A stretch of 64,000 bases of DNA from NCBI RefSeq assembly GCF_000564855.1, contig NZ_AYXG01000039.1:35370-99369 (forward strand), read 5' to 3'. Both the position numbers and the translations under genes were made by a program. The notes under the pieces are model-generated. The model was not told where the DNA came from, searched no databases, and saw nothing but the letters and a program-made list of their open reading frames with translations. Shown one piece after another: positions 5,296 through 64,000 of this stretch. The DNA is from Actinokineospora spheciospongiae. Its GTDB lineage: Bacteria; Actinomycetota; Actinomycetes; Mycobacteriales; Pseudonocardiaceae. Positions within the stretch are counted from its first letter, which is position 1, and each line of letters begins with the position of its first letter.

Positions 5296-8200
5296 CCACG
5301 CACCTGCCCGGTGCCGACCCCACCGAGGCCGCGCCCGCGCCGGAGGCCCCGGTGGACGCCATCGCGGTGGTCGGCATGGCGGGCCGCTTCCCCGGGGCCG
5401 GGGACGTCGGGGCGTTCTGGGCGAACCTGCTCGCCGGGGTCGACTCGGTGACCGACACCCCGGGCGCCGGGCCGCGCGGGGTGCTGGCGGACGCGGAGCT
5501 GTTCGACGCCGGGTTCTTCGGTTTCAGCCCGCTGGAGGCCGAGCGCACCGACCCGCAGCACCGGGTGTTCCTGGAGTGCGTGCACGCGGCCCTCGACGAC
5601 GCCGGGCACGGCGACCCGGCCCGCAGGCCGGTGACCGGGCTGTACGCGGGTTCCGGGTTGAGCACCTACCTGCTCGACGTGCTGGCCAGCCCCCGGCACA
5701 CCGCCGACCTGGACGAGTCGCAGTTGGTCATCGGCTGCGACAAGGACTACCTGGCCACCCGGGTCGCGCACCGGCTCGACCTGCGCGGCCCCGCCGTCGT
5801 GGTGCAGTCGGCGTGCTCGACGTCGCTGGTGGCGGTGCACCTGGCGGTGCAGGCGCTGCTGGCCGGGGAGTGCGACCTGGCGGTGGCGGGCGGGGTGTCG
5901 GTGCGCGGCGGTTCCGCGTCCGCCCTGCCCAGCCGGGGAGATGGCATGGTGTCCCCGGACGGGCGCTGCCGGGCCTTCGACGCGGGCGCCACCGGCATGG
6001 TCTCCGGCGACGGGGTCGGCGCGGTGGTGCTGCGCAGGCTCGACGACGCGCTGGCCGACGGCGACCGGGTGCTGGCGCTGGTGCGCGGGTCGGCGGTCAA
6101 CAACGACGGCGCCGCCAAGGCCGGGTACACCGCGCCCTCGGTCGGCGGTCAGGTCGAGGTCATCCGCGCCGCGCACGCCGCCGCGGGCACCGACCCGGCG
6201 ACCGTCGGGTACGTCGAGGCGCACGGCACCGGCACCCGGCTGGGCGACCCGATCGAGGTGGCCGCGCTGGCCGAGGCGCTGGGGCCGGGCCGCGACTGCG
6301 TGCTGGGCTCGGTGAAGACCAACATCGGCCACCTCGACGCCGCCGCCGGGGTCGCCTCGCTGATCAAGGCCGTGCAGGCGGTGCGCACCCGGGTGGTGCC
6401 CGCGACCCTGCACTTCCGCACCGCCAACCCGGAACTGGGCCTGGCCGAGACTCGGTTCCGGGTCAGCGCCGAGCCGCGCCCGTGGTCCGGGCGGGCCGGG
6501 GTCAGCTCGTTCGGCATCGGCGGCACCAACGCGCACGTGGTGCTGGAGGAGGCGCCCGCGCGCCCCGCGCCCGACGCGCACCGCCCGTGGCAGCTAATCC
6601 CGCTCAGCGCGCGGACCCCGGAGGCGCTGACCGGCGCGGCGGCCCGGCTCGCCGACGCGCTCGCCCCCCTGACCGGCGCTGAGTTCGCCGACGCCGCGCA
6701 CACGCTGCAAACCGGCAGGCAGGCCTTCGGCCACCGGCTCGCCGTGGCCGCCCGCACCGGCGCCGAGGCCGCCGACCGGCTGCGCACCGCTGCGCACTCC
6801 ACTGTGGAGGGTGCGCCGCCGGTCGTCTTCCTGTTCTCGGGGCAGGGGTCGCAGTACCCGGGCATGGGTTCCGGGCTGCGCGAGACCGAACCGGTGTTCC
6901 GCGCCGAGTTCGACGCGTGCGTGGGCATCGCCGCCGACCTGGGCACCGACCTGAGCGCCGCGCTGGCCGACCCGGAGCTGTTGCGGCGCACCGAGTTCAC
7001 CCAGCCCGCGCTGTTCGCCGTGGAGTACGCGCTCGCCCGGCTGTGGGAGTCCTGGGGCGTGCGCCCGGCGGCCGTGGTCGGGCACAGCGTGGGCGAGCTG
7101 GTCGCCGCCTGCGTCGCCGGGGTGCTCACCCGGGAGGACGCGCTGGCCCTGGTCGTCGCCCGGGGCCGGGCCATCGCGGCCTGCCCGCCGGGGGCGATGC
7201 TCGCCGTGGGCGCGGACGACCTGGGGACCTTGCCGCCCGGGGTGGAGGTGGCCGCCGTCAACGCCACCGCGCAGACCACCGTGGCGGGTCCGGCCGACGC
7301 CGTCGCCGCGTTCGCCGAGGACTGCGCCGCCCGGGGCGTCCGCACCCGGCTGCTGCGCACCTCGCACGCCTTCCACACCTCCGCCATGGCCCCCGCCGCC
7401 GCCGAGGTGGCGGCGGTGGCGGCCACCCTGGCGCACGCCCCGGCGCGCATCCCGCTGCACTCCACGGTGACCGGCGAGCCGATGACCGAGGTCGACCCCG
7501 GCTACTGGGGGCGGCAACTGCGCGCCCCGGTCCGCTTCGCCGACGCGGTGGCCCCCGTGCGCGGCCTGCCGATGGTGGAGGTCGGCCCCGGCCGGTCGCT
7601 GTCCGAGCTGGCAGGCCCCGGCGCCCGACAGAGCTTGCCGACCGCGGGCGCCGACCGGCACGACGCGGCCACGCTCGTGGAAACCGCCGCCGCCCTGTGG
7701 TGCGCGGGGGTTCCGCTGGACTGGTCGGGGCTGCACCGAGGTCAGCGCCGCCGCCGCACCGGCCTGCCCGGCTACGCCTTCCAGCGCACCCGCCACACCG
7801 TCCGGGGCGACGCCGCCCCGACACAGGTCATCCGACGCGCGCCCCGGGAGACAGCGCCCCAGGAGGCGTCACCGGAGAGCGCGCCCCGGGAAACAGCGCA
7901 GCGGGAGCCGGGGACGGGCACCGAGCAGGTCGTCGCGGCGGTGTGGGAGCGGCTGCTGGGCGTCGAGGGCGTGACCCGGGACCAGTCGTTCTTCCAGCTC
8001 GGCGGGCACTCGCTGGTCGGGATGCGGGTGCTCGACGAGCTGGCCGCCAAGTTCGGCGTCCGGCTGCCGGTGGCCGCGCTCTACGACCACCCCACCCTGG
8101 GCGAGCTGGCGGGCGCGGTCGACCGCGCGGAGGCGACCGACCTGCCGCCGATCACCGCCGGACCGGTCGACGGCGCACCGCTGACCCCGACCCAGGAGCG

Positions 8201-33130: not shown

Positions 33131-33805
33131 TCACCCGCCGCTCACCCGTTCGGCGGCCTGCGCGCGGGTGGGCGCGGCGCTGGAGCCGACCCCGGTCACC
33201 GACGCCGACCCGCAGGCGACCGCCAGCGCGAGGCACGTGCGCAGGTCGGCCCCGCCCAGCAGCCCGTGCACGAACCCGGCGTCGAAGCAGTCCCCGGCGC
33301 CGGTGGTGTCCACGACGTCCACCGCGGGCGCGGGCAGCGCGCAGAACTCCTTGCCCCGCAACGCCAACGCGCCGTCCGCGCCCCGCTTGACCACCACCGT
33401 CCCCACCACCTCCGCCAGCACCCGCGCGGCGTCCTCGACGGTGGAGGCCCCGGTCAGCCGCAGCGCTTCCTCGGCGTTGGGCGCGAACACGTCCACCTGG
33501 GCGAGGACGTCCCGCACGGCCCCCAGCGCCACCGGCACGTCCTGGCAGTCCATGAACACCAGCGCCCCCGCCGCCCGCGCCCTCCCCAGTGCCCGCGCCA
33601 CCCCGGCGCCGTGGCGCAGGATGGGCAGCAGCAGCACGCGCGGGCGGTGGGCGGCCACCAGTTCCCCCAGGGGCGGTTCCACCGCCGGGTCCCGGTAGCT
33701 GACCATCGCCCGGTCCCCCGCACCCGACAGCACGGCGGTCACGTTGCGCTGCGGCCCGTCGACGGCGGTGAACCCGCTCCCGTCCAACCCTTCCCGCCGC
33801 GCGAC
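33131..33805 (-). pseudogene. N-terminally truncated PfkB-family sugar kinase
   Basis: The frame encodes the C-terminal two-thirds of a ribokinase/PfkB protein. EGLDGSGFTAVDGPQRNV is where family members are about 80-100 residues in; FAPNAEEALRLTG, VVKRGADGALAL and the catalytic DTTGAGDCFDAGFVHGLL follow. The N-terminal lid and sugar-binding GG..N region is absent, and no room is left for it: the opposite-strand metallo-hydrolase begins at 33923. A GTG at 33742 could still start a 203-residue product, but it would lack the substrate site. It lies 107 bases upstream of the glucosylglycerol gene. End coordinate approximate. Confidence 0.75.
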
Positions 33806-33910
33806 CGGACCCGGGCGGCGGGGCGCGGTCCCCGGTGGAGGACCGGAACCGGACGGGTGAACCGGGGTGCCCCTCGGCGGCGCGGGAGTGCCCCCGGCCG
33901 CTCCGGTGGG

Positions 33911-33916
33911 GATACT
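33911..33916 (+). promoter_or_regulatory. -10 hexamer GATACT of a leaderless gene
   Basis: GATACT ends seven bases before the GTG at 33923, placing the transcription start on the start codon. The first base departs from TAnnnT, so this is weaker than the other examples. Confidence 0.45.
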
Positions 33917-33922
33917 GGCCGG

Positions 33923-34720
33923 GTGGGTCCACTCGCCTTGCGGTTCGTCGGGCACTCCACCGTGCGGGTGGAGCTGGCCGGGCACGTCGTGCTGACCGAC
34001 CCGGTGCTCACCGACCGGGTGTCGGCGCTGGCGCGGGTGAGCGCGCCCAGCACCCCGGCCGACCGCGCCGACGTGGACCTGGTGCTGCTGTCGCACCTGC
34101 ACGGCGACCACGTGCACCTGCCGTCGCTGCGGCTGCTCAGCCCGCACGTGCGGGTGGTGGTGCCGCGCGGGGCGGGCGACTGGCTGCGGGCGAAGGGCGT
34201 GCGCAACGTCGACGAGCTGGCCCCGGGCGCGGAGCTGGAGCACGGCGACCTGCGGATCACCGGTGTCCCCGCCGAGCACTCTGGGCACCGGTGGGGGCCG
34301 CGGTCCACCCGGGGCCCGCAGGCCCGGGCCATGGGCCACCTGATCGACGGCGCCGGGCAGCGGGTCTACGCGGCGGGCGACACCGACCTGTTCCCGGGGA
34401 TGGCCGACCTGCGCGAGGTGGACGTGGCGCTGCTGCCGGTGTGGGGGTGGGGTCCGACGCTGGGGCCCGGGCACCTCGACCCGGTGCGCGCGGCCACCGC
34501 CGTCGAGCGCGTCCGGCCGGGGGTGGCGGTGCCGGTGCACTGGGGGACGCTGGCGCTCGCCGGGCTGCCCCGGCTGCCCGGCGGGCACGGCAGGCGGATG
34601 CGGCGGCTGCTGCACGACCCGCCGCACGAGTTCGCCGCCGCCGTCGCCGGGACCGGTGTGCCGACCCGGGTCCTGGTGACCCGACCGGGCGACGACGTGC
34701 CGCTGCCGGACCCGCGATGA
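33923..34720 (+). CDS. Metallo-beta-lactamase-fold hydrolase (UlaG-like)
   Basis: 265 residues from a GTG with leaderless promoter geometry. The zinc motif is intact (LLSHLHGDHVHLPSL), with a further His in PAEHSGHRWGP and an acidic site in AAGDTDLFPGM, then VPVHWGT. This looks like the UlaG/L-ascorbate-6-phosphate-lactonase-like branch rather than a beta-lactamase. There is no signal peptide. The last codons, PDPR and the stop TGA, form the left edge of a tandem repeat array and overlap its first ATG as ATGA. It appears to head an operon with dedA and the membrane phosphodiesterase. Confidence 0.9.
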   Translation: MGPLALRFVGHSTVRVELAGHVVLTDPVLTDRVSALARVSAPSTPADRADVDLVLLSHLHGDHVHLPSLRLLSPHVRVVVPRGAGDWLRAKGVRNVDELAPGAELEHGDLRITGVPAEHSGHRWGPRSTRGPQARAMGHLIDGAGQRVYAAGDTDLFPGMADLREVDVALLPVWGWGPTLGPGHLDPVRAATAVERVRPGVAVPVHWGTLALAGLPRLPGGHGRRMRRLLHDPPHEFAAAVAGTGVPTRVLVTRPGDDVPLPDPR

Positions 34721-34833
34721 GCGACTTCCCCGCCCTGGACCGGGCAAACCCGACCACCTCCGGAACCGGCACACCAATCCCGGTCCCGGTCACCCACTCC
34801 ACCGACCACATACCGCCGCCGGACCCGCGATGA
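34717..34833 (+). CDS. Micro-ORF 1 of a coupled relay (38 residues)
   Basis: ATG at 34717 overlaps the metallo-hydrolase stop as ATGA, and its own TGA overlaps the next ATG the same way. It starts MSDFPALDRANP, resembling the DedA start MSGFLGVDWANP, and ends HIPPPDPR. No Shine-Dalgarno sequence precedes it; only CCGGACCCGCG is there. Translation would depend on ribosomes arriving from the gene before. It could be a decayed duplicate of the DedA start with no role of its own. Confidence 0.55.
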   Translation: MSDFPALDRANPTTSGTGTPIPVPVTHSTDHIPPPDPR

Positions 34834-34946
34834 GCGGCATCCCCGCCCTGAACCGGGCAAAACCGACCACCCCCGGAACCGGCACACCAACCCCGGTCCC
34901 GGTCACCCACCCCACCAACCACATACCGCCACCGGACCCGCGATGA
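34830..34946 (+). CDS. Micro-ORF 2 of a coupled relay (38 residues)
   Basis: Same length as micro-ORF 1 and joined on both sides by ATGA. Begins MSGIPALNRAKP and ends HIPPPDPR. Eight of its nine base differences from copy 1 change the amino acid, yet length, start, stop and overlap are unchanged. That fits selection, if any, on the act of translation rather than on the peptide. Because the unit is 113 bases, each copy sits in a different frame and only the ATGA joints keep the relay open. Confidence 0.55.
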   Translation: MSGIPALNRAKPTTPGTGTPTPVPVTHPTNHIPPPDPR

Positions 34947-35119
34947 GCGGCTCCCTCGGCGTGGACCGGGCGAACCTGACCACCCCCGACCCCGCCACAC
35001 CAAACCGGGTCCCGGTCACCCACCCCACCACCCCCGACCCCACCACCGGAACCGGCACACCAACCCCGGCCCCGATCACCCACCCCACCGACCACATACC
35101 GCCACCGGACCCGCGATGA
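34943..35119 (+). CDS. Micro-ORF 3 of a coupled relay (58 residues)
   Basis: Begins MSGSLGVDRANL, the copy closest to the DedA N-terminus, and ends HIPPPDPR with a TGA overlapping the dedA ATG as ATGA. It is 60 bases (20 codons) longer than copies 1 and 2, owing to an internal duplication of the Pro/Thr part that keeps the frame. The Pro-Pro-Pro-Asp before the stop is a sequence type known to slow ribosomes in the absence of EF-P, which could matter for re-initiation at dedA. Confidence 0.55.
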   Translation: MSGSLGVDRANLTTPDPATPNRVPVTHPTTPDPTTGTGTPTPAPITHPTDHIPPPDPR

Positions 35120-35724
35120 GCGGGTTCCTCGGCGTGGACTGGGCGAACCCGTCCTCCCTCGGCTACCCGGTGATCTTCGGCGGGGTGCTGCTGGGGTCGG
35201 TGGTGCCGGTGGTGCCGACCGGGGCGGTGGTCGGCGCGGGCGCGGCGATCGCGGTCAGCGGCGGGCACCTCGACCTCGTGCTGGTGGTGCTGCTGTCGAC
35301 CCTGGGCGCGCTGGTGGGCGACCTGGTCACCTTCGGCGCGGGCCGCGGCGGGCGCGGCGCGCTGAGCCGGTGGTTCGAGCGGCGCCAGTCGCCGGAGAAG
35401 CTGGCGGGGGCGCGGGAGCGGTTCACCGCGCGCGGCTGGGTGCTGGTGGTGGTCGGGCGGCTGGTGCCCGCGGGCCGCATCCCGGTGCTGCTGGCCGCCG
35501 GTGCCCTGGACTACCCGTGGCGGCGGCTGGTGCCCGCCGCGGCCGCCGCGTGCCTGCTGTGGGCGGTGGCCTACGCCGCGCTGGGCGTGCTCAGCGGCGG
35601 GCTGTTCGACAACCCGCTGGTCGCGACCGTCGTCGCCACGTCCCTGATCCTGCTGCTCACCCTGGCCGTCGGCGGGGTCCAGCGGCTGCGGCGGCGCGGG
35701 GAGGAGCGGCGCGGTGCCGCGTGA
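35116..35724 (+). CDS. DedA-family membrane protein
   Basis: 202 residues, with about five hydrophobic segments. The family core is present: an N-terminal re-entrant part with GSVVPVVPTGAVVGAGAAIA, LGALVGDLVTFGAGRGG, and the conserved GRLVPAGRIPVLLAAGALDYPWRR. DedA/SNARE-associated proteins are lipid scramblases or flippases, several acting on undecaprenyl phosphate. No ribosome-binding site precedes the ATG, which overlaps the stop of micro-ORF 3, so expression probably depends on translation through the micro-ORF array. It overlaps the next gene by 11 bases. Confidence 0.9.
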   Translation: MSGFLGVDWANPSSLGYPVIFGGVLLGSVVPVVPTGAVVGAGAAIAVSGGHLDLVLVVLLSTLGALVGDLVTFGAGRGGRGALSRWFERRQSPEKLAGARERFTARGWVLVVVGRLVPAGRIPVLLAAGALDYPWRRLVPAAAAACLLWAVAYAALGVLSGGLFDNPLVATVVATSLILLLTLAVGGVQRLRRRGEERRGAA

Positions 35725-37810
35725 CACCACCGGCAGCCTCGTGCGGGGCGGGCGCGTCGTGGCCCGCCTGCTGCTGGTGTGGGTGCTGGTGGCGGTCAGC
35801 CTGCACCTGCTCGACCTGTGGCTGACCGACTTCGCCATGCCGCGGTGGTGGCAGCCGACGGTGTTCGCCGCCGCGGTCGGCCTGCTCAGCGCCGTGGTCT
35901 GGCCGCTGATCATGCGGTTCGTCCCGCCGGGCCTGGTGCTGCTGCTCGGCCTGGGCTCGTTCCTGCTGCTCGGCGCGGGCGTGCTGGCGATCTCGCTGGC
36001 GGTGCCGTACGTGGTGATCGGCAACCTGCACACGGCGGTGCTGGTGGCGGTCGTGGTTTCCGCCGTGGCCGGTCTGGCGTCGAGCGTCCTGGCGATCGAC
36101 GAGGACGAGGTCTTCTTCCGCCGCGCGGCCCGCCGGTTCCGCGACGGTGACCGCTCCCCCGCCGATGAGCCACCGGGGGTGCTGCTGCTCCAGATCGACG
36201 GGCTGGGACACGACACCGTGCGCCGGGCGGTCCGCGACGGCGACCTGCCCACCCTGGCGCGCTGGCTGTCCACCGGCAGCCACGTGCTCACCGACTGGCA
36301 CTGCGACTGGAGTTCGCAGACCGGGGCGAGCGTGTGCGGGCTGCTGCACGGCTCCAACGACGACATCCTCGGCTTCCGCTGGTACGAGAAGGACCGCGAC
36401 CACGTGATGGCGTGCGCGCACCCGGGCGACGCCGCCGAGATCGAGCGCAGGCACTCCGACGGCCGCGGTCTGCTCGCGGGCGGCGGCGCGGCCCGCGGCG
36501 GGCTGTTCACCGGTGACGCCGAGCAGACCAGCCTGACCATGAGCGCGGTCCCGTTCCTCACCCGGCGCCCGCGCGACACCATCGGCGCCGGGTACTACGC
36601 CTACTTCGCCAACCCGGTGAACCTGTTGCGCACCCTGGGTTCGGCGCTGGTCGACGTGCTGCGCGAGGTGTCCGCCTCCACCCGCCAGCGCCGCGCCGGG
36701 GTGCGACCGCGGGTCAGGCGCGGCGGCTTCTACCCGTTCGCCCGCGCGGGCACCACGGTCATCGTCCGCGACCTGGTCGTGTCCGCGCTGATCGGCGACA
36801 TGCTGGCGGGTCGCCCGGTGGTGTACGCGGACTTCCTGGGCTACGACGAGGTCGCCCACCACACCGGCATCGAGCGGTTCGACGCGCTGGCGGTGCTGCG
36901 CTCGATCGACCAGCAGATCGGCAGGCTGCACCGCGCGGCCCGGCTGGCCCCGCGCCGCTACCACCTGGTGGTGCTCTCCGACCACGGGGTGACCCAGGGC
37001 GAGGCGTTCACCAACCGCTTCGGCGAGTCGATCGAGCAACTGGTCGGCAGGCTGTGCGGGGAGCCGCGGTCCGGGCGCGGACCGCGCCGCTCACCGGCGG
37101 AGGGCTGGCAACTGGGGGCCGCGGTCGCCGAGGCGTCCACCGGCTCCGGTCCGATCGCGAGCGCGCTGCGGGCCCGGGCGGCCCGGGCGGCGGCCCCCGA
37201 CCGGCACCGCACCGAGCAGGGCAGGCCCGCGGCGGTGACCAGGGCGGCGCCCGGGGTGGTCGTGGTGGTGTCCGGGCACGTGGCGATGGTGTCGTTCACC
37301 GACGTCGAGGGCCGGGTGGACGTGGAGACCGTCGAGCGCCTGTTCCCCGACCTGCTGCCCACCCTGGTCGACCACCCCGGGGTGGGGTTCATGCTGGTGC
37401 GCAGCGCCGAATCCGGCCCCCTGGTCCTCGGCCGCGACGGCATCCGCCACCTGTCCGACGACACCGTGCGCGGCGCGGACCCGCTGGCGCACTACGGCCC
37501 GCACGCGGCGGACCTCATCCGCCGCACCGACGGCTTCGCCCACTGCCCCGACATCCTGATCAACAGCCGCTACAGCCCGGCCACCGACGAGGCCTCCCCG
37601 TTCGAGGTCCACGTCGGCTCGCACGGCGGCCTCGGCGGCGGCCAGTCCCGCGGCTTCCTGGTGCACCCGGCGGAGTTCCCACCGCCCGGCGAGATCATCG
37701 GCGCCGAGCACCTGCACCGGGTGGTCCGCGACTGGCTCACCGGCCTGGGCCACCCCGAACCGGGCCAAGCCGACACCGGAGCCCGGACCGCCCCTGTCCC
37801 GCCCGGGTGA
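35714..37810 (+). CDS. Membrane-anchored alkaline phosphatase-fold phosphodiesterase
   Basis: 698 residues from a GTG within the end of dedA. The first 140 residues hold four hydrophobic helices of the phage-holin-family type seen fused to this enzyme group in actinobacteria. From about 155 an alkaline phosphatase/nucleotide pyrophosphatase domain follows: LLLQIDGLGHDTV (metal Asp), DWSSQTGASVCGLLHG (Thr as likely nucleophile), YADFLGYDEVAHHTG (metal Asp/His), LVVLSDHGVTQGE (metal Asp-His), and a late HVGSHGGLGGGQ. It would hydrolyse a phosphoester at the membrane. With DedA it may act on a lipid-linked phosphate. Confidence 0.88.
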   Translation: MPRDTTGSLVRGGRVVARLLLVWVLVAVSLHLLDLWLTDFAMPRWWQPTVFAAAVGLLSAVVWPLIMRFVPPGLVLLLGLGSFLLLGAGVLAISLAVPYVVIGNLHTAVLVAVVVSAVAGLASSVLAIDEDEVFFRRAARRFRDGDRSPADEPPGVLLLQIDGLGHDTVRRAVRDGDLPTLARWLSTGSHVLTDWHCDWSSQTGASVCGLLHGSNDDILGFRWYEKDRDHVMACAHPGDAAEIERRHSDGRGLLAGGGAARGGLFTGDAEQTSLTMSAVPFLTRRPRDTIGAGYYAYFANPVNLLRTLGSALVDVLREVSASTRQRRAGVRPRVRRGGFYPFARAGTTVIVRDLVVSALIGDMLAGRPVVYADFLGYDEVAHHTGIERFDALAVLRSIDQQIGRLHRAARLAPRRYHLVVLSDHGVTQGEAFTNRFGESIEQLVGRLCGEPRSGRGPRRSPAEGWQLGAAVAEASTGSGPIASALRARAARAAAPDRHRTEQGRPAAVTRAAPGVVVVVSGHVAMVSFTDVEGRVDVETVERLFPDLLPTLVDHPGVGFMLVRSAESGPLVLGRDGIRHLSDDTVRGADPLAHYGPHAADLIRRTDGFAHCPDILINSRYSPATDEASPFEVHVGSHGGLGGGQSRGFLVHPAEFPPPGEIIGAEHLHRVVRDWLTGLGHPEPGQADTGARTAPVPPG

Positions 37811-63651: not shown

Positions 63652-64000
63652 CCTGCCACCCCGCAACCGCCAGCCCGGCGAGCGAATGCCCAGGTGGGTG
63701 GAGGTGCCCGCCCAGCCGACCACCCGAAACCCGCCAGCCCGGCCAAGCAAACGCCCGGGTGGGCGGGTGTGCTTGGCCAGCCGATCACCCCGAGAACCAG
63801 CGACCCGGCGAGCCAACTGCCCGGGTGGGTGGAGGTGCTTGGCCAGCCGACCACCCAACAAACCGCCAGCCCGGCTACGCCCCTGCCCGGGTGGGTGGAT
63901 GTGCTTGCCCAGCCAACCACCCCCGAAACCGGCGGCCCGGCAAGCCAACTGCCCGGGTGGGTGGATGTGCTCGGCCAGCCGACCACCCAACAAACCGCCG
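63652..64000. repeat. 65-66-bp tandem repeats reaching the right edge
   Basis: At least five copies; the GCCC(G/A)GGTGGG element starts its Cs at 63689, 63754, 63820, 63886 and 63952. Each unit runs CCCGGGTGGGTGGAxGTGCTxGCCCAGCCxACCACCC and then a less conserved part with GCCAGCCCGGC. Read on the minus strand one frame gives a 22-residue repeat (VVGWPSTSTHPGSWLAG...), but other frames are equally open, so coding is doubtful. It continues beyond the window. Confidence 0.9.

Follow-up and report, generated by a model that had tools for sequence, protein, structure and literature searches.

The window analysed here is a stretch of 64,000 nucleotides of Actinokineospora spheciospongiae (contig NZ_AYXG01000039.1, positions 35,370 to 99,369 of the forward strand). 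Within it, the region 34717–35119, lying between a gene for a metallo-hydrolase (gene A) and dedA, is filled by three open reading frames of 38, 38 and 58 aa (Table 1). The start of gene A was the choice of a simple gene finder, and its TGA stop sits within the ATGA at 34717–34720. ATGA also forms the remaining joints, so that the gene A/ORF 1, ORF 1/ORF 2, ORF 2/ORF 3 and ORF 3/dedA transitions are all -4 overlaps, one of the two overlap types (-4 or -1 nt) by which termination–reinitiation pairs are recognized. The chain of three micro-ORFs leading up to dedA, reported in a preliminary description of this DNA, was thus confirmed from the ORF calls.

Table 1. Positions of the genes, micro-ORFs and repeat features of the gene A–dedA region, numbered from the first nucleotide of the window.
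Feature	Position	Strand	Remarks
Gene A, beta-lactamase-superfamily metallo-hydrolase	33923..34720	+	PF12706, E 2.3e-32 (given from 33926)
Final 72 nt of gene A, from which the 3' part of the unit seems to derive	34649..34720	+	
Core of joint 1, 18 nt, the same in four joints	34706..34723	+	Repeats at 34819–34836, 34932–34949 and 35105–35122
Micro-ORF 1, 38 aa, ATGA joint at either end	34717..34833	+	
Whole relay array between gene A and dedA	34721..35115	+	A/C-rich
Micro-ORF 2, 38 aa, ATGA joint at either end	34830..34946	+	38-aa relative P0002
Micro-ORF 3, 58 aa, ATGA joint with dedA	34943..35119	+	58-aa relative P0001, 97% identical
Initial 41 nt of dedA, from which the 5' part of the unit seems to derive	35116..35156	+	
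dedA, VTT-domain membrane protein, 202 aa	35116..35724	+	PF09335 (VTT/DedA), E 3.4e-17
Phosphodiesterase-domain protein, encoded next in the cluster by a gene that overlaps dedA	35714..37810	+	

The distances between successive starts in the array were 113, 113 and 173 bp, each of them 2 mod 3, which is required of any ORF that runs from one ATGA to the next. The 60 extra bases of micro-ORF 3 are accordingly in frame, as had been claimed. Tandem Repeats Finder detected a period of 113 with 2.9 copies and an 89% match, in agreement with the 113-bp tandem repeat described before, and the score of 502 was the highest among arrays with a period of at least 25 in the 672,265 bases of the genome that were sampled. 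A different tandem array (132/66 bp), which begins 7 bp downstream of the stop codon of a gene on the + strand, occupied positions 63659–63999 up to the end of the window. Similar arrays of 60–66 bp were present at several contig ends of the same genome, which suggests that such arrays may break the assembly.

The four starts had been described as lacking a Shine-Dalgarno sequence. The signal was indeed weak at all of them, but a match does exist, the longest one ahead of each start being 3 nt (GGA). Such weak signals at the array joints are not rare, because 24 of the 62 -4 pairs in the genome sample likewise had a match of at most 3 nt. An internal dedA promoter and a ribosome-binding site belonging to dedA itself, both named in advance as findings that would speak against a relay, were also looked for. 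A scan of 33700–35300 with the sigma-70 consensus, the only promoter model used, gave no match, and dedA was preceded by GGA only. These data bear on the view that the array is a neutral tandem repeat, one of many, which came to lie in an ATGA overlap by chance. The relay would then be inconsequential because dedA is dispensable or independently started, and the scan and the bare GGA argue against an independent start.

The array was rich in A and C, with a GC skew of -0.43, the lowest value among 167 co-directional gaps of 60–800 bp, in which the highest was +0.42; other arrays in the genome sample were skewed too, in either direction relative to the adjacent gene. Its interior contained a single ATG/GTG/TTG triplet, the GTG at 34961, and two TGA triplets outside the joints, at 34849 and 34977. 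Since Rho prefers C-rich unstructured RNA, a role at the RNA level could be considered for this C-rich and G-poor stretch, e.g., as a site of Rho entry at which transcripts would end if ribosomes did not continue to arrive through the relay. In line with this, the skew was the most negative of the 167 gaps and the predicted fold of the array (MFE of -114 kcal/mol) was about half as stable as those of five partly overlapping flanking windows of equal length (-198 to -247). However, shuffled versions of the array averaged only -95 (sd 6, 40 shuffles), so that at -114 it is not structure-free for its composition, and Rfam gave nothing up to E 1 in 34500–35400. An RNA-level role is regarded as very improbable. 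The Rfam result and the two fold comparisons also bear on a leader-peptide attenuator, which would be recognized by alternative RNA structures or by membership of a regulatory RNA family.

The repeat unit starts with the initial bases of dedA and continues with the final bases of gene A. Over its final 72 nt, gene A was identical to the consensus of the copies at 52 of 72 positions, ungapped and in its own frame, while 5000 shuffles gave a mean identity of 0.32 and a maximum of 0.50. The identity of the dedA head (30 nt) to copy 1 was 0.73 and that of the gene A tail was 0.68. The correspondence of the repeat ends to the end of gene A and the start of dedA, pointed out in the preliminary description, therefore held. 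Because the unit resembles the tail of gene A together with the start of dedA, its most likely origin, judged from the letters, is that some 113 bp around the two genes' ATGA overlap were duplicated in tandem; such an event would also produce the observed order of the unit.

When the array was searched against its genome (7,526,218 bases), 40 of the 305 first-look candidates were scored; these comprised its own locus and three weak hits, with no second full-length match. The region 34600–35200 had no match in the plasmid collection. A close relative of the present dedA was identified in three of 16 Actinokineospora genomes, its own included. The two congeners, G002 and G007 (A. pegani, the G007 locus being identical to that of A. 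pegani over 3591 bp), had a plain GTGA overlap at the junction, which indicates that the array is likely derived. The restriction of the close dedA relative to just three of the 16 genomes is in accordance with a neutral repeat next to a dispensable gene, as is the richness of the sampled genome in intergenic tandem arrays, several of them lying less than 100 bp behind a stop according to the simple gene finder.

Conservation of the joint at the same junction in related genomes had been proposed as a check, and an NTGA chain was present in all 16 related loci, where the dedA start was taken as the one that fits. With the present array, the chain from gene A to dedA was unbroken in 17 of 17 examined loci, which argues against a relay without consequence. 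Among them were 11 plain overlaps, including the TTGA joint of L023 (TTG lay outside the start set of the script), four loci with a 4-aa ORF, one with ORFs of 12 and 87 aa and the present one with 38, 38 and 58 aa. The survey covered the gene pair loci other than the DedA loci L018, L019 and L025–L049, and L022, being the same as L008, was left out. All four 4-aa ORFs were found in Pseudonocardia, and no difference is visible between two of these loci (L015 and L017) over the stretch compared. The ORFs of 12 and 87 aa belong to Actinophytocola oryzae (L006, 3706–4004), where a 291-bp insert unlike the present one occupies the same gene junction; the last two joints of this insert have GGCATGAGCG in common.

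Copies 1 and 2 differed in nine codons, eight of them with a changed residue, which bears out the statement that the two differ mostly at amino-acid-changing sites. Neither ORF 1 nor ORF 3 had a Pfam match at E values up to 0.1. The idea that the micro-ORFs encode conserved peptides was dropped on these two grounds, and the peptides, compared as translated sequences, look unconstrained. Across the copies, 74 of 113 columns were invariant and the longest invariant run, 18 nt, lay around the joint (P of 0.0087 in column shuffling, a value that takes no account of recent copying among the copies). Conservation seems to concern the joint and an open path rather than the peptides. In the three copies, 58 of 64 letter differences from the gene A tail and 24 of 26 from the dedA head were replacements of G or T by A or C; these counts are not independent events, the copies being related. 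This drift to A and C leaves few stray starts and stops and a predicted fold less stable than that of the flanking genes, and may have arisen from either selection or mutation.

Relatives of two micro-ORF products were found in protein clusters: P0001 (58 aa, related to ORF 3) and P0002 (38 aa, related to ORF 2). They were assigned to a contig of 888,622 bp; as the contig that contains the window has 99,369 bp, they probably come from another strain or assembly. Compared as proteins alone, each differed from its counterpart in two residues, with equal lengths and ends. P0001 ended in HIPLPDPR, with Pro-Leu-Pro in place of Pro-Pro-Pro, whereas P0002 retained HIPPPDPR. The former ending weakens the suggestion that Pro-Pro-Pro runs in the micro-ORFs slow the ribosomes.

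Further relay repeats were detected in the family. Triple ATGAGCG joints occurred in 16 places at a spacing of 97–127 bp (15 of 297 Pseudonocardiaceae genomes) and in 34 places at 66–96 bp (25 of 297). Four of these 50 places had no locus and the other 46 were parsed. In 23 of the 46 loci, an open frame of at least 100 aa ended on the first joint, and all 23 were chained to another such frame; the present array is one of the 23, and some frames ran off the locus, their true starts being outside the view. Four loci with in-frame repeats in genes (L119, L120, L122 and L131) and two duplicates (L157 and L161) were removed by hand. L142 (0 mod 3) was retained among the remaining 17 because its unit resembles other elements to the eye. 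The spacing was 2 mod 3 in 14 of the 17 arrays, the present one included. L142 and L152 (both 0 mod 3) read through their units, while each unit of L144 (1 mod 3) is read as two ORFs. The read-through of L142 (genome G273) amounts to an N-terminal extension, and a unit of L144 (G103) holds an 18-aa and an 8-aa ORF. Among the relays met in this analysis that join two long frames, that of L134 (G070) was the longest, its chain of five 25-aa ORFs linking an open frame of 414 aa to one of 393 aa. A further 13 tandem arrays had a shorter upstream frame; eight of them reached a 100-aa frame (L118, L123, L132, L135, L136, L143, L146 and L158) and five did not (L121, L140, L149, L156 and L159).

The other ATGAGCG repeats share with the present array the short ORFs chained by ATGA between two genes, and differ from it in being dispersed, in mostly having a Shine-Dalgarno match of at least 4 nt and in lacking resemblance to the flanks at both ends. 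For the unit of L117, where 40 of 263 candidates were scored, G167 gave at least 47 matches; for that of L126, with 39 of 39 scored, G083 gave seven. Among 37 fetched element copies, several from the same array, 26 lay in a relay on either strand. A Shine-Dalgarno match of at least 4 nt preceded the joint in 15 of the 16 other arrays, with only AGAA in L154. Of the 17, the present array was the only one to resemble both neighbouring genes, with 0.68 at the tail and 0.73 at the head. In the other 16, the values were 0.27–0.47 for the tail and 0.20–0.53 for the head, with two exceptions: L139, whose tail value of 0.98 probably reflects an additional upstream copy, and L142, whose head is 1.0 by construction. 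Membership of the present array in the dispersed family was rejected, the one family motif tried giving no match in 672 kb of its genome; the same motif had no match in 400 kb of G002. Judged by ORF layout, no further home-made arrays were obtained from 30 parsed ATGACCG loci (other places on the list yielded no locus), which were mostly in-frame repeats inside one ORF and included no micro-ORF chain between two ORFs of at least 100 aa. In one locus, L201 (G104), 107-bp tandem ATGACCG units formed a chain of 9, 36, 36 and 36 aa with an upstream ORF of just 26 aa. A two-step relay (25 and 3 aa) was observed in L091 at joints around 6045–6130, the first two of which share GGAGTGAACCG.

When the interior of the present array was shuffled, an unbroken chain was obtained in only 0.47% of 20000 trials; this null is loose because shuffling destroys the repeat as well. 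The corresponding P was 0.074 for the A. oryzae chain and an uninformative 1.0 for the three 4-aa chains tested. Relays across a gap are not rare and also arise by chance: in the own genome, 11 of 236 gaps were crossed by them, compared with 6.8 after shuffling of the interiors and 2.1 and 4.3 after insertions of 1 or 2 nt, and relays were found in none of 145 gaps in the G002 sample. Among the 11 gap relays, the present array was alone in having joints that are alike at either end, at 0.71 and 0.77 compared with 0.22–0.47 and 0.27–0.43 in the remaining ten.

Insertion controls were also run on the 17 arrays. The first, which asked for any 100-aa ORF only, kept 15.9 and 15.4 of them; in the stricter one, 5.0 were still chained on average at 1 nt per unit and 11.8 at 2 nt per unit. 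The present array hardly broke, being chained in 100% and 99.5% of trials, with insertions placed in its first two units and the last, 173-nt unit left intact. Frame keeping was therefore rejected as strong evidence of selection, since this stop-poor array stays chained to dedA after 1- and 2-nt insertions. Of the statement that the ATGA joints keep translation passing although 113 is not a multiple of three, the chain itself is real and frame keeping is weaker evidence than it appeared. The openness of the alternative frames also agrees with a neutral repeat, whereas the rarity of the chain among shuffles speaks against it, and taken together with the evidence from the related loci this makes a neutral repeat without consequence rather unlikely.

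The explanation that we consider reasonably probable is that the array is a home-duplicated junction acting as a relay which keeps dedA translated by termination–reinitiation. A segment of about 113 bp across the gene A/dedA ATGA overlap would have been duplicated in tandem, leaving three short ORFs, and ribosomes could pass from gene A through the micro-ORFs to dedA by repeated termination and reinitiation. If dedA needs coupled translation, lineages with chain-breaking inserts would have been lost. In gene pairs of E. coli and Haloferax, a gap of about 20–38 nt is described as nearly abolishing coupling (available text of PMC10666635), from which one would expect coupling to be lost across 395 bp if no relay were present, and a dedA lacking its own start signal to be weakened or silenced; certain E. 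coli constructs are described as coupling across hundreds of nt (PMC12548453, in part). The anatomy of the locus, the 16 related loci together with the present array and the MIRU precedent are all consistent with a relay for coupled translation.

On the relay reading, the yield of DedA may change with copy number as a side effect. The preliminary description went further and proposed an attenuator or counter, in which every joint loses some ribosomes and the copy number is selected to set the DedA:hydrolase ratio. The presence of four joints rather than one, each with a 3-nt Shine-Dalgarno match only, would suit such a device, as would the relation in mycobacteria between intergenic repeat length and the fpg1 mRNA level, although there the longer repeat goes with more mRNA (as described in the available text of PMC2734929). 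However, two congeners have the gene pair without an array, P0001 has no Pro-Pro-Pro, and the identical layout is predicted by the bridging relay, which explains the same facts with less. Selection for a counter is considered unlikely.

If the relay explanation is right, an operon can absorb hundreds of bases at a coupled junction with its genes staying coupled, and a candidate origin for MIRU-type repeats is at hand. The relay repeats of Pseudonocardiaceae would in turn offer many natural junctions for measuring termination–reinitiation coupling.

MIRUs reportedly enter DTGA sites, a finding attributed to Supply et al. in 1997. In the available text of a review by Brown and Wade (PMC12548453), MIRUs are presented as likely natural ribosome-delivering inserts with -4 joints, whose small ORF is thought to allow insertion at a gene start with little effect. 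They are described as 40–100 bp long and scattered over 41 places in M. tuberculosis H37Rv; repeats of this type are a common tool for strain typing, and their function is described there as not well understood (PMC2734929, in part). Ordinary -4 coupled pairs have the ATGA joint and the supposed ribosome behaviour of the present array (PMC10666635 and PMC6728339, as far as their available text goes), but such pairs have one joint and no inserted ORFs, in contrast to the four joints found here. The rnc-fpg1 repeat of M. tuberculosis (ETR-F/VNTR3239) resembles the present case in that relatives have a short junction where it has an array (1–54 bp in other mycobacteria versus 279–358 bp; PMC2734929, in part), whereas its units are of 55/79 bp, compared with 113/173 bp here, and the effect reported for it is on the mRNA level.

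With MIRUs, the present array has in common short repeat units, which in MIRUs are in tandem at certain loci, and a small ORF with a -4 overlap to the flanking gene. Its units of 113, 113 and 173 bp fall outside the range of 40–100 bp. MIRUs are dispersed and apparently mobile, whereas the present unit had no other full match in the genome among the 40 of 305 candidates scored, and a MIRU is an inserted element, whereas the present unit resembles its own flanking genes. Being home-made, longer and not found dispersed, the array is MIRU-like in its working and is not classed as a MIRU, the comparison being with MIRUs as described. A relay built from its own flanking genes was not reported in the literature searched, i.e., open-licence papers mostly at title and abstract level. 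The relay layout is already known from MIRUs, and the home-made unit is what is new. It is conceivable, though rather unlikely, that the locus represents a MIRU-like relay near its birth, in which an ATGA junction copied itself in tandem and subsequently lost G and T along the path, leaving ribosomes hardly any stray starts or stops to encounter. In that case, array length may be a heritable and easily changed setting for the downstream gene, and dispersed relay repeats such as MIRUs would have begun as duplicated gene junctions.
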